From positions 126,554 through 190,553 of the forward strand of contig NZ_JACYXK010000024.1 of NCBI RefSeq assembly GCF_014842975.1: DNA of 64,000 nt, in the 5' to 3' direction. Of this stretch, positions 25,312-30,200 are shown in pieces. Source of the DNA: Rhodanobacter sp. DHB23 (GTDB lineage: Bacteria; Pseudomonadota; Gammaproteobacteria; Xanthomonadales; Rhodanobacteraceae). Made by a program: the position numbers and the translations under genes. The notes under the pieces are model-generated. The model was not told the DNA's origin. It saw only the letters and a program-made list of their open reading frames with translations, and did no database searches. The number at the start of each line of letters is the position of its first letter. The stretch's first letter is position 1.

Positions 25312-26325
25312 ATGCGTTGGATGAAATGGTGCATGACCGCCGCCGTGCTGCTGACGGCGGCGGTGCAGGCCGACGAGGCCGCGCCGCTGCCCAGGCTGAA
25401 GGTGGACGCGGTGCGCGTGGCAGTGGCCGGCCTGTCCTCCGGGGCGTACATGGCGACCCAGGCGCAACTGGCCTATCCGGAGGTCTTCCGCGGCGCCGCG
25501 CTGGTGGCCGGTGGGCCGTACGGCTGCGCGAACGGCCAGTTGAACGCGGCGCTGGGCAGTTGCATGAAGGGCGTGCCGCCGCCCGACGTGGATGCGCTGG
25601 TGAAGCGCACGGAGCAGCGCGCCAGTTCCGGCGAGCTCGGCTCGCTGGACGCGCTGTCGTCGTCGCACGTGTACCTGTTGCATGGTCGCGCCGACAAGGT
25701 CGTCGCTCCCGCGGTGGCCGAAGCCGGCGCGGCGTTCTACCGCAAGCTGCGCGATGGCGTGCCGGGCCTCAAGGGCATGCAGGTGGTGGACGACGGCCAA
25801 CGCGGCTTCGGCCACAACCTGCCGGTGGCGGCGGGCGGCGACGATTGCGGCAAATCGGAATCGCCCTATCTGGGCCACTGCGGCTTCGACGCGGCGGGCG
25901 CGATCTTCGCGCAGCTGTACGGCCCCGCGCCGCGGGCGGCCACGGCGGCGAAGGGACAGTTGCGCACGTTCGACCAGGACGCGTTGCGGCCCGGTGGCGC
26001 CGATGCCTTCCTCGCCGACACCGGCTACGTCTACCTGCCGCCGGACTGCCTCGCCGGCAAACCCTGCGGCCTGCTGGTGGCCCTGCACGGCTGCAAGCAG
26101 AACGCCGAGGCGGTGGGCGAGGCCTTCGTGCGCGACGCCGGCTTCAACCGCTGGGCGGACGCCTACGACGTGGCCGTGCTGTACCCTCAGACACGCGCAA
26201 GCTTCGCGCCCTTGAATCCGCAGGCATGCTGGGACTGGTGGGGATATTCCGGCACGAATTACGACACACGGCAGGGCGTGCAATTGCGCTGGCTGATGGC
26301 TGCGGTGCGCGCCATCGAAAAGTGA
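25312..26325 (+). CDS. Secreted PHB depolymerase-type esterase, circularly permuted
   Basis: A 337-residue exported esterase of the poly(3-hydroxybutyrate) depolymerase family. GGGAG precedes the ATG by a good distance, and the signal is [20 protein letters not shown]. The lipase box GLSSG (Ser42) comes early. The probable catalytic Asp ([10 protein letters not shown]) and His ([10 protein letters not shown]) follow, while the oxyanion-type block [16 protein letters not shown] comes near the C-terminus. In most depolymerases this LHGC block precedes the lipase box, so this is the circularly permuted domain type. No separate substrate-binding domain is present, suggesting action on amorphous polymer or oligomers. 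It is probably co-transcribed with the receptor. Confidence 0.8.
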
Positions 26326-26342
26326 TGGCCGCAGCCACTGTT

Positions 26343-27265
26343 CTCCCCTCGCCCGCTTGCGGGCACGCGGAGAGGCGCCATGGATGGCGCCGGCTTTGGG
26401 GAGCGAGGAGAGGGGTTGGGGGAGAGGGCGCTTTTGCTTTGGCTGTGTTATCGCAAGCGACAGAGCGGTTTCGTCCGCCTGTCGGCGGCCGAGTTCCTTT
26501 CTCTTTGCGTGCCCAAAGAGAAAGGAACCAAAGAGAAAGGGCACCCCGATGGCGCGCCCTCCGGGCCTCCTGCCCTACGGGTGCGCGGGTGGGCTACGGG
26601 GTTTTTCGACGGGGCTCCTGCCCCGGCGAAAAACTGGCCGGCATCCCTGCCGGCCACCCTGCGGGCTTTCCTCCGCCCCCCCGCCGCGCCATAGGGGCCC
26701 CGGAAGAGCAGCGCGCTCCTGCGCGCAGAAGCAACTCCAACAGCAACAGCCAAAGCCAAAGCCAAAGCCAAAGCCAAAGCCAAAGCCAAAGCCAAAGCCA
26801 AAGCCAAAGCCAAAGCCAAAGCCAAAGCCAAAGCCAAAGCCAAAGCGCCGCGCCCGCACGACGCTCTGCGGTTGCTTCTGGCGCGCACGATGCGCGCCTG
26901 CTTTTCCGGGGCCCCTCGGCGGCGGTGAGCCGTGGACGAAGAGGCCGCGCAGCGGGCGAGCCCATGGATGGGCTCGCCTTTTCGCGCGGGCAGGAGCCCG
27001 CTCGAAAAGCCCGGCCACGGCTCACGGACTTTCCGCCCATGGAAGGGCGGAAAGCACCGCCGCGGGGTGTCGTTTCCTCTTGGTTACTTCTCCTTTGGAC
27101 AAGCAAAGGAGAAGTAACTCGGGCGCCGACAGGCGCTCGAAACCGCTTTGAAACTTGCGACACCCCGAAGAGCAAAAGCCCCTCTCCCCCAACCCCTCTC
27201 CTCGCTCCCCAAAGCCGGCGCCATCCATGGCGCCTCTCCGCGTGCCCGCAAGCGGGCGAGGGGAG
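26343..27265. repeat. 923-bp palindromic element with perfect 86-bp terminal inverted repeats
   Basis: The first 86 bases (26343-26428, starting CTCCCCTCGCCCGCTTGCGG) are the exact reverse complement of the last 86 (27180-27265). Inside, both arms have the same order of hairpins but with different sequence: 15-bp stems with 6-base loops at 26493-26528 and 27083-27118; T-rich/GC stems with TCCT or AGGA loops at 26602-26633 and 26979-27008; and GGCCGGC- or GGCGAGCCC-type stems next to them. The centre holds sixteen CAAAGC units. It fills the gap between the depolymerase and the hybrid kinase, and its end supplies the GGGGAG ribosome binding site of the kinase. Open frames across it (proline-lysine or leucine-alanine repeats) look spurious. 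Confidence 0.9.
26751..26846. repeat. Hexanucleotide tandem repeat (CAAAGC)16
   Basis: Sixteen perfect copies of CAAAGC, preceded by two degenerate CAACAGC-like units, sit at the centre of the palindromic element. A perfect hexamer run of this length is expected to vary by slippage. Confidence 0.95.
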
Positions 27266-27280
27266 CAACAGGTGGGCGTC

Positions 27281-30200
27281 ATGCTGAGCGTCGTCTGGAT
27301 CGCCGCCGCCGCCCTGCTGTGGCTGGGCCTGCTGTTCGCCGTCGCGCTCTACGGCGAACGCCACGCGCAGGCGTTCAACAAGCGCTGGGCCATCGTCTAC
27401 GGCCTCTCGCTGGCCATCCACTGCACCTCGTGGACGTTCTACGGCACCGTCACGCAGGCCAGCCGCTCGGGCTGGTGGCTGCCCCCCACCTTCGTGGGCG
27501 CCATCCTCATCTATCTGTTCGCGGCAGGCTGGCTGCAGCGCCTGGTGCAACTGGCGCGCGAATGCAACGCCAGCTCGCTGGCCGACCTGATCGCCGCAAG
27601 GCTGGGGCGACACTCCGGACTGGCGGCCGTGGTCACCGCGGTGATGCTGCTCGGCATGGTCCCGTACATCGCGCTGCAGCTGAAGGCGGTGGCGATGAGC
27701 TACGGCGTGCTCAGTCGCGGGCACTATGCGGGAACGCCGGCCTGGCAGGACAGCGCGCTCTACGTGGGCCTGGCGATGGCCCTGTTCACGATGCTGTTCG
27801 GCACGCGCCGCGCCGCGGCCACCGAACACAACCGCGGGCTGGTGCTGGCGGTGGCATTCGAATCGCTGTTCAAGCTCGGCGCGATGCTGGCGCTGGGCTC
27901 GCTGCTGTTCACCGCGGTGCCGGCGACCGCGGCGATCGGCACGCCGCCGCCGGTGGATCGCGACGGCTTCCCCGCGCTGATCCTGCTCGGCGCGCTGGCG
28001 ATGTTCACCATGCCGCACCAGTTCCATGCCGGCGTGGTGGAATGCCGCGACGGCGGCCACGTGCGCACCGCGCGCTGGCTGTTCCCGCTGTACCTGCTGC
28101 TGATCGCGTTGCCGATCCTGCCGCTGGCGCGGCTGGGCGACAGCTGGCTGCGTCCGGTGGGCGTGCCGTCGGATCTCTACGTGCTGGTGCTGCCGCTGGC
28201 GCAGGGCGAGCACGGCCTGGCGCTCACGGCGTTCCTGGGTGGACTCAGCGCGGCGACCAGCATGGTGGTGGTGAGCACGCTCACCCTTAGCCTGATGGTG
28301 AGCAACCATTTCGTGGCGCCGCTGCTGGTGCGCGCGGGCTGGGGGCGCGGGCGGCAGGGCGATTTGCGCGGCGCGGTGCTGATGCAGCGGCGGCTGGCGA
28401 TCCTCGCCATCGTGCTGCTGGCCTGGGGCTACAGCCGCGTGCTGGCGCGCAGCGACGCGCTGGCCGACATCGGCGCGATCTCGTTCTCGGCGCTGGCGGG
28501 GCTGGCGCCGGCCGCGCTGGCGGCGGTGTACCGGCCACAGGTCGGCGCGCGCGCGGTGGGCGGCGGGCTGCTGGTGGGCACGCTGGTATGGCTGTATGCC
28601 TTGCTGCCGGCGTTGTTCGCGCCGCAGCCGGCCTGGGTGCTGGCTGGCCCGTTCGGCGTGGCGTGGCTGGCGCCCGCCCACCTGCTCGGACTGGACGACT
28701 GGAGTCGCCTGGCGCGCGCGGTGGCGCTGAGCCTCGCGGCGAACGTGGCGGTGATGTGGCTGGTGGCGCGCTCGCGCTTCGCGCACGCGGCGCCGGCGCC
28801 TGGCGGTGGCGTGCTGCTGGTGGAACTGCGCGCGCTGGCGCAGCGTTTCCTGCCGGCGCTGCGCGTGCACGAGCTGTTCCGCGACGCGCCGGACCGCGTG
28901 CTGGCCGATGCCCCGCGCATCGCCGCGGTGGAGCATGAGCTGGCCGCGGTGATCGGCGCCGCGTCCGCGCGCCTGCTGCTGGACGTGATGCGCCACCAGG
29001 GGCCGCAGGACCTGGACGCGGTGGCCGCCATCGTGGGCGAGGCCGCGCAGGACCTGCGCTTCAACCAGCGCGTGCTGGCCGCGGCCCTGACCAGCATGAG
29101 CCAGGGCATCTGCGTGGTGGACGCGCAGTTGTGCGTGGTGGCGTGGAATCGTCCCTACGAGGAATTGTTCGCCTATCCGCCCGGCCTGCTCGAAGTGGGG
29201 CGTCCGGTGGCCGAGCTGGTGCGCCACAACCTCGCCGCCGGCCTGGCCGGCGGCGGCGAGGTCGATGCCGACGTGCGCCGTCGCCTGGCGCACATGGAGG
29301 CCGGTTCGCTGCACCATTCGGAGCGGCAATTCCCGAACGGCGTGGCGGTGGAGATCCGCGGCAGCCCGATGCCCGGCGGCGGCTACGTCGCCACCTATAC
29401 CGACGTCACCGCGTTCCGCAACGCCGAGCGCGCGTTGAAGCGCATCAACGAGACGCTGGAGCAGCGCGTGGCCGAGCGCACGCAGGCACTGGCACTTGCC
29501 AGCGACGCCGCGCAGCGGGCGAACGAGGCGAAGACGCACTTCCTCGCCGCGGTCAGCCACGACCTGCTGCAGCCGCTGCACGCCGCGCAGCTGTTCTCGC
29601 ATGCGCTGCAGGTGCGCCTCGCCGGCGACGAAGCCGCCGCCACCGCGCGGCACCTGGACGGTGCGCTGGCCGCCACCGAAAGCCTGCTCGCCGGCCTGCT
29701 CGACATCGCCAAGCTGGAGGGCGGCCGCTTCAACGTATGCCCGCGCGACTTCGCGCTGGCCGAGGTGCTCGATCCGCTGGCCGCCGAGTTCCGCGCGCTG
29801 GCCGAGGAGCGCGGCATCCGCCTGCGCGTGGTGGGCACCCGCGGCTGGGCGCATTCGGATCCGCAACTGCTGCGCCGCGTGCTGCAGAACTTCCTCGCCA
29901 ATGCGTTGCGCTACACCGAGCAGGGCCGCGTGCTGCTGGGTTGCCGCCGCGCGGAAGGGCAGTGGCGCATCGAGGTGTGGGACAGCGGCCCGGGCATAGA
30001 CGAAGGCGAGCAGCGCCTGATCTTCGAGCAGTTCCGCCGCGGCAGCGCGGCCAGCGGACAAGGCCTGGGCCTGGGGCTGGCGATCGCCGAGCGCATGGCC
30101 GGCCTGCTCGGGCACCGCCTGTCGCTGCGCTCATGGCCGGGCCGGGGCAGCGTGTTCGCGGTGGGATTGCCGAGCGCCGCCACCGGCCGCACGGTGCGCC

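Follow-up and report, generated by a model that had tools for sequence, protein, structure and literature searches.

The window analysed here, a 64,000-nt stretch of the Rhodanobacter sp. DHB23 genome, contains a palindromic element of 923 bp at positions 26343-27265. The element begins 18 nt past the last stop-codon base of an ORF at 25312-26325 that is esterase-like by eye, and a large plus-strand ORF, sensor-kinase-like by eye, starts at its right arm. The outermost 86 nt on each side (26343-26428 and 27180-27265) are exact inverted copies (100%), able to pair with each other, and chance origin is excluded for a perfect inverted pair of this length. Further inside, 26451-26570 and 27041-27160 are 73% complementary, and 26599-26632 and 26979-27012 are 85% complementary. 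Each arm retains a perfect 15-bp hairpin (26493-26507/26514-26528 and 27083-27097/27104-27118), the sequences of which differ between the two. A (CCAAAG)n tandem repeat, without strand assignment, occupies approximately 26750-26847, and its middle lies about 6 nt from the midpoint of the element (26804); in some relatives it is replaced by other sequences. These results bear out a first-pass annotation of this DNA, which had described perfect 86-bp arms, drifted inner arms with their hairpins in the same order, and a hexamer repeat at the centre. It had also judged that no plausible protein is encoded, which fits our scan of five ORFs, where only weak Pfam and NCBIfam matches and none at a curated cut-off were obtained, as well as the presence in some units of single-base deletions, two of which face each other across the hairpin and another of which affects the third strand described below.

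The same annotation treated the 923 bp as a single element, far larger than REP elements. The structure was as described, but the element is a composite, in which REP-like arms bound a separate core, itself a palindrome formed by two units of ~280 nt in back-to-back order. The size comparison likewise holds for the core but not for the arms, which are REP-like repeats themselves. When core halves and arms were mapped separately on 38 stretches from the own genome, core units and arms proved independent of each other: the arm family is also present alone, and three cores (L041, L042, L044) had no arm match. The arms have a long form, of 86 nt, and a short one that joins the first 21 to the last 22 nt, the latter being found at both ends of three other own-genome loci (L029, L031, L032). 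In the window, the left arm (26343-26428, plus strand, assigned from its sequence) is of the long form and includes the hairpin GGCGCC-ATGGAT-GGCGCC at 26374-26391, with GGA on the plus strand; solo copies of this arm mostly have the same orientation relative to upstream genes. The right arm (27180-27265, minus strand) is its inverted copy by sequence comparison.

Each core unit has a functional strand that runs from the centre outward. The left unit, located by nhmmer, extends over 26462-26742 on the minus strand, and a model of its outer portion, the pseudoknot model R1, matched 26462-26559 on that strand with 91.7 bits. The right unit (26867-27149, functional strand plus), also located by nhmmer, was matched at 27052-27149 with 86.8 bits and is included in the alignment A1. 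From the centre, the predicted order of a unit is a GC-rich hairpin, a closing stem enclosing hairpin H3 and a three-way junction with hairpins H4 and H5, a pseudoknot, and hairpin H1. In the right unit, on the plus strand, H5 is found at 26955-26978 (GGCGAGCCC-ATGGAT-GGGCTCGCC, with a GGA loop), H4 at 26979-27008 with an AGGA loop at 26992-26995, H3 at 27029-27054 with an ATGGAA loop, and H1, which closes the 3' end of the unit and was placed by alignment and covariation, at 27119-27140. The right pseudoknot (27068-27118, plus strand) would pair TGTC at 27068-27071 with GACA at 27098-27101, next to the stem 27083-27097/27104-27118, and its putative third strand, TTTCCTCTT at 27073-27081, would lie parallel to AAAGGAGAA at 27105-27113 on the same strand in nine triples. 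The left counterpart (26493-26543, minus strand) is predicted to combine the stem 26493-26507/26514-26528 with pseudoknot pairing of 26510-26513 to 26540-26543 and a third strand at 26530-26538.

Alignment A1 comprised 69 diverse units on the centre-outward strand, made up of 67 of the 73 units kept from 180 and the two units of the window, and alignment A2 comprised 75 of 97 kept units together with the same two; neither includes blocks that had Ns, insertions or deletions, and some other blocks were omitted as well. The consensus of the 69 units has 63 pairs, 55 of which show changes on both sides, so that the stems of the unit are shown by comparative analysis to covary; the innermost GC-rich hairpin, which by eye has an AGGA or CGA loop, lies outside this consensus. 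The pseudoknot pairing itself takes the forms TGCC/GGCA, TGGC/GCCA, TGTC/GACA, TGTG/CACA, TGCT/AGCA and TCGC/GCGA, and was paired in 96.4% of cases, as compared to 75.1% in shuffles, a value reached by 0 of 5000. Compensatory, two-sided change was seen in all four pseudoknot pairs, with 96.7% of cells paired, and the stem cells of the same alignment were 98.9 and 98.7% paired. H1 was weaker, at 69.2% on the pseudoknot alignment, where its loop lengths are unequal, and its count of further pair types was attained in 18 of 500 shuffles. These shuffles take no account of sequence relatedness, and different patterns recur in distant genera. Covariation cannot separate RNA from single-stranded DNA, and single-stranded DNA recognised by a transposase is the main rival to a role as RNA.

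The stem hairpin of the pseudoknot has the form GTTAC-pyrimidines/purines-GTAAC and follows a pyrimidine tract on the functional strand; on the other strand this tract is usually the exact mirror, not the complement, of the stem purine strand (for example AAAGGAGAAG with AAGAGGAAA and GAGAGAAAG with AAAGAGAG). Mirror identity was 0.953 in the 205 parsed units of 237 candidates (32 were unparsed), as compared to a shuffled mean of 0.717 and a maximum of 0.76, and 0.839 for the 35 unique mirror pairs against 0.673 (maximum 0.784); neither value was reached in 5000 shuffles. The third-strand relation is not built into R1, so matches to this model outside f1, the window's family, provide a further test. 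Here 86 of 112 matches were parsed, leaving 26 unparsed, and gave 0.848 against 0.740 (maximum 0.795), while 37 unique pairs gave 0.797 against 0.708 (maximum 0.794), again with 0 of 5000 in both cases; these are fresh sequences but not wholly foreign ones, R1 having been built from A2, which held a few Pseudomonas and Dechloromonas sequences. On the functional strand the tract matches the stem purines by the parallel Hoogsteen rule for pyrimidines (U.A-U and C+.G-C) and covaries with them. It occupies the loop 1 position of an H-type pseudoknot, and loop 1 of such a pseudoknot crosses the deep groove. Copying errors of the template-switching type yield inverted or direct repeats, not mirror repeats, and the mirror match thus points to selection for a three-stranded fold. 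Comparison of the units thus shows a predicted H-type pseudoknot beside the outer hairpin, the loop of which fits the stem purine strand as a parallel pyrimidine third strand, although a third strand containing several C+ would depend on low pH or on being stabilised locally. Among the three options offered by the first-pass annotation, an RNA with a mirrored fold came closest, since the symmetry is truly a mirror one, with a purine strand and its reflection on either side of a turn, as is characteristic of a triple helix, and covariation is extensive. It is highly improbable that the mirror repeat is selected as duplex DNA that forms H-DNA, for example as a replication pause or nucleoid site. 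A purine mirror repeat with a short turn is indeed present in most parsed copies, but its arms are only ~8-9 bp, and covarying pseudoknot pairs and separate local hairpins are features of a single strand.

The strand that carries the pseudoknot also bears, as predicted from the aligned units, stem-loops with GGA loops; this is shown for units of Lysobacterales, of the Pseudomonas type and of some other families. GGA is kept in the loops while the stems vary, in 68 of 69 aligned units at H4, 64 at H5 and 41 at H3. The sequence of H5 is CA-N-GGA-Y-G, and CAG occurs in H4 in 57 of 69 units. According to a review (available part of PMC7652899), the CsrB repeat is CAGGA(U/A/C)G, the SELEX site is RUACARGGAUGU with GGA mostly in a hairpin loop, RsmE recognises ANGGAN, and very stable stems may weaken CsrA binding. 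The loop sequences of the element resemble both the CsrB repeat and the ANGGAN loop; the stems of its GGA hairpins are long, which counts against RsmA binding given the caveat from the same source. We also related GGA loops to the presence of CsrA (PF02599), which was found in 27 of 40 examined genomes among the 66 with R1 matches, and was absent from all nine examined f16 genomes and from four others (G564, G560, G442, G524). This loop test covered 108 units from 33 genomes, omitting partner units with weaker R1 scores; loops were counted by local folding, strict perfect-stem counting being too insensitive. In 22 genomes with CsrA, GGA occurred in 90 of 241 inner loops on the functional strand and in 4 of 254 on the other strand, as compared to 14 of 149 and 4 of 184 in 11 genomes without CsrA. 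The contrast gives a Fisher value of 3.9e-10 at the level of loops, at which genomes are not independent and ancestry is a confounder. At the level of families, with a mark set at 25% of loops, GGA hairpins were present in 6 of 10 families with CsrA (f1, f2, f17, f27, f50, f51) and in none of three without it (f16, f43, f44; Fisher by hand ~0.2). The CsrA-positive families f14, f15, f41 and f45 have few or no GGA loops. A hairpin of the GAGCG..CGAGTT type takes the place of the GGA hairpins in f14, f15 and f45, which have CsrA, and in f43 and f44, which lack it. This TGTTTGAGCGAAGCGAGTT-type hairpin was seen in the interiors of L231, L233, L245, L286, L288, L290, L294 and L305 and is perhaps the site of another protein.

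The surrounding genes were compared by means of a crude GC3-based calling script, which called an overlapping ORF at four element loci and at one counted solo-arm site. Among 20 element loci in the own genome, 7 lie between convergent genes, 12 between co-directional genes and none between divergent genes, and one could be assigned on one side only. Three single core units (L038, L042, L044) are antisense to co-directional genes. At co-directional sites, the GGA strand of solo arms is in the mRNA sense at 8 of 9 sites in the own genome and at 22 of 27 in other species of the genus (antisense at 5), and the arm midpoint lies 53-60 nt past the stop codon at 16 of the 30 sense sites. The 48 solo-arm sites from these other species also included 8 with convergent neighbours, which are uninformative, 3 with divergent ones, 5 located within called ORFs, 1 that has no gene on its left and 4 adjacent to a core. 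As a separate observation, the lone 86-nt arms at L049-L065 of the own genome carry several GGA motifs on one strand and often lie at a near-fixed distance past stop codons.

The absence of divergent neighbours at all 20 loci, the strong and stable hairpins, and the seven terminator-like consensus sites in 26300-27300, where 2.2 are expected from shuffles, would suit a bidirectional terminator or a stabiliser of mRNA 3' ends alone, with incidental GGA loops and no role for RsmA. We consider this unlikely. None of the seven sites lies at H1 of the right unit on the functional strand, where no long T tract follows H1, and a terminator needs neither a mirror third strand nor a covarying pseudoknot nor a conserved loop sequence.

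The element is repeated within the genome and widely beyond it. BLAST yielded 102 matches to the element or its parts in the own genome, self and both strands included, and matches were present in 14 of 15 genomes of the genus, the own genome among them, so the multiple copies that the first-pass annotation had suggested looking for do exist. In the order, a search with half-element DNA matched 66 of 250 genomes, and in the phylum R1 matched 66 of 397 genomes and 46 of 232 genera; Dyella, Rhodanobacter, Xanthomonas, Pseudomonas, Dokdonella, Dechloromonas and Gallionella are among the matches listed. A plasmid of Ilyobacter polytropus, of a second phylum (Fusobacteriota), carries an R1 match, and Pasteurella and Variovorax records also carry a match to the element. 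The first-pass annotation had also forecast that open frames of the element would be annotated as proline-lysine-rich hypothetical proteins in related genomes; in three annotated plasmid records, from other families and phyla, no annotated feature lies under the BLAST match. One 121-nt query found no similar DNA in collections of phage and E. coli genomes. No Rfam family reached gathering score over 25800-27800, and no description of the family was found in open-access PMC text, either by sequence-string searches, which gave one unrelated paper, or among the top-ranked results of topic searches; the available part of PMC2267715 has no mention of Xanthomonas or Xylella. Some draft contigs stop inside or beside elements (the end of L068, L261, L262, L281), and short-read assemblies therefore probably undercount them.

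Adjacent units were typed from full-length R1 matches of at least 23 bits, after removal of two duplicate loci. They stand back to back in 12 of 12 pairs in the own genome, 32 of 33 in the genus and order, 44 of 49 in the collection scan and 46 of 50 in other families, and the orientation of the predicted units is thus shown to be the same in nearly all pairs examined. The exceptions are pairs in reversed order (Xanthomonas L104 and L106; L200; f2 genome G027; and two loci of f43 genome G560) and pairs in the same direction (L089, L137 with two, and L296).

Several observations would suit a mobile element acting at the level of DNA, in which folds of single-stranded DNA, like a giant REPIN or MITE, are seen by a transposase acting in trans and RNA plays no part. 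Two own-genome copies, L031 and L032, are 96.9% identical over 813 bp, that is, over the arms and what they enclose plus ~11 nt beyond each side, and their flanks are otherwise unrelated. This pair suggests that copies bounded by arms can still spread. Filled and unfilled sites, another proposed check, were both found in the genus. At a site beside an FKBP gene, the core was present in five of eight stretches examined; of those without it, one ends within 0.4 kb of the gene (G011), one has other neighbours (G005) and one has the same neighbours with a different repeat (G004). At an ABC/FtsX site, the core was present in 5 of 13 (G000, G004, G006, G014 and G005, in the last of which the contig ends in the element), and the two genes are directly adjacent in G008, G009, G003, G012 and G001. 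The genome also has a gene of the Y1 transposase type, and inverted arms bound the element at the window and at L029, L031 and L032, as they do in REPINs (available part of PMC3116915). Nevertheless, we regard the DNA-level explanation as rather unlikely. Neither target duplications, which the first-pass annotation had advised seeking and for which L031 and L032 were inspected, nor clean excision was seen. No arm copy is present within ~1.5 kb on each side of the two Y1 loci (L027, L028), and homologous sites retain the core while the arms differ or are absent. The left flank of the ABC/FtsX site is common to G000, G014 and G004, which probably reflects one old insertion, but G004 has no arm at either end and G014 has other ends. 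The homologous site of the window, inspected by eye, has a core in G002 that is bounded by different REP-like ends and contains a REP at its middle, and in G004 no arm precedes the core, inside the first unit of which the contig stops. The same site with different arms or none indicates that the arms are exchangeable. In addition, the GGA loops resemble the motif of an RNA-binding protein, and in solo arms the strand with GGA mostly runs in the direction of the genes. The earlier suggestion of a non-autonomous mobile element therefore stands as regards the arm-to-arm copies with unrelated flanks and the filled and unfilled sites, but it lacks a target duplication and a linked transposase.

Two candidates for the mover were rejected: Y1/RAYT, since the genome has two PF01797 matches with no arms beside either, and the gene between inverted arms at L033, which by eye is a threonine synthase-like housekeeping gene and not a transposase. 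The Y1/RAYT-like gene at L027 occupies 1393-2328, with no neighbouring REP copies in the fetched stretch. Separately, a divergent unit pair at 1091-2564 of L301 (G631) encloses a 1.3-kb centre with an ORF starting MSNIKLPVAV inside the palindrome, by eye possibly a nuclease-type defence gene. A second repeat family, of the GTCATTCCGGCGCAGGCCGGAATCCAGTG type, forms the centre of an element in G009 and stands alone at the same gene pair in G004 (L308, ~2270-2390; L313 reverse, ~2000-2110); element centres seem to attract other repeats.

We give about even odds to the reading in which the core is an interspersed repeat of two back-to-back structured units that act as RNA, with a 3'-end triple helix and GGA hairpins that bind RsmA/CsrA. 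Its parts differ in strength. The predicted structure of the unit is well supported by the comparative data, and the strand bias of GGA, together with the tendency of the arms to lie in the sense direction, lends moderate support to action as RNA. Expression, RsmA binding and a role in 3'-end protection are what we infer from these features, and in the best reading RsmA binding would be limited to some lineages. A transcript from either flanking gene would cross one unit antisense and end with the other in functional orientation, and the outward-reading pair would thereby allow the palindrome to serve both directions of transcription. The pseudoknot and H1 would come last, at the 3' side of the transcript. 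Triple helices protect the ends of some stable eukaryotic RNAs; here the triple helix may shield the RNA 3' end from exonucleases while the GGA hairpins hold RsmA/CsrA. Many copies together could then form a diffuse RsmA sponge or a set of RsmA-responsive 3' ends. The REP-like arms would form another 3'UTR element family that has a GGA hairpin; they would attach at the core's ends and may mobilise it as a long REPIN-like unit.

More tentatively, and at somewhat less than an even chance, the element may represent a pan-proteobacterial dispersed palindromic triple-helix RNA, which provides bidirectional protected 3' ends and in several lineages a genome-wide RsmA/CsrA sponge. If so, read-through from tens of genes would add up to titrate a global post-transcriptional regulator. 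It is easy to write such repeats off as intergenic filler. If they act as RNA, many bacteria would hold tens of structured 3' elements per genome that are unlisted in the Rfam release searched, and the CsrA link would add a layer of regulator titration spread genome-wide. This link also makes the long-standing question of the role of large interspersed palindromes directly testable. Moreover, triple helices are rarely supported comparatively by compensation among three strands, which is seen here in about two hundred natural variants from many genera.

Like REP, BIME and REPIN repeats, the arms are short palindromes rich in GC that occur many times per genome, mostly in intergenic DNA where examined, and form inverted pairs; in one case (L031/L032) arm-to-arm copying was seen. 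Unlike REPINs with their RAYT, the core is ~700-800 bp, is structured beyond a REP doublet, exists without arms, and has no copies by the Y1 matches. ERIC and NEMIS are also intergenic, hairpin-forming, multicopy palindromes, but the present element is larger, has two units and three-strand covariation, and extends to many families and a second phylum. In its several stem-loops with CAGGA(U/A/C)G-like GGA loops, candidate binding sites by their sequence, the element resembles RNAs of the CsrB/RsmZ type; it differs in its tens of dispersed copies, its palindromic pair, its pseudoknot and the absence of an Rfam match at gathering score, the best being RsmW with 24.4 bits (gathering 52, E 0.17). 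Xanthomonas RsmU, an RsmA-binding RNA that is processed from a 3'UTR and is undetectable without RsmA, offers a precedent for a 3'UTR origin; it is a different RNA, of 117 nt with a terminator, in which changing four GGA motifs did not abolish RsmA binding (available part of PMC7694677). Identity with RsmU was rejected, as no unit was present in 20 stretches around HHH_3 matches from 14 f2 genomes; in six of these stretches the match lies in a short, comEA-sized ORF. Finally, the triple-helix pseudoknots of telomerase RNA and MALAT1/ENE differ from the one predicted here from sequence, which is bacterial, belongs to a dispersed repeat, has no poly(A) partner and places its third strand on an H-type loop. 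As in those RNAs, a pyrimidine loop would supply the third strand of parallel U.A-U and C+.G-C triples within the stem's major groove, and the predicted triplex lies, by position, near a 3' end.
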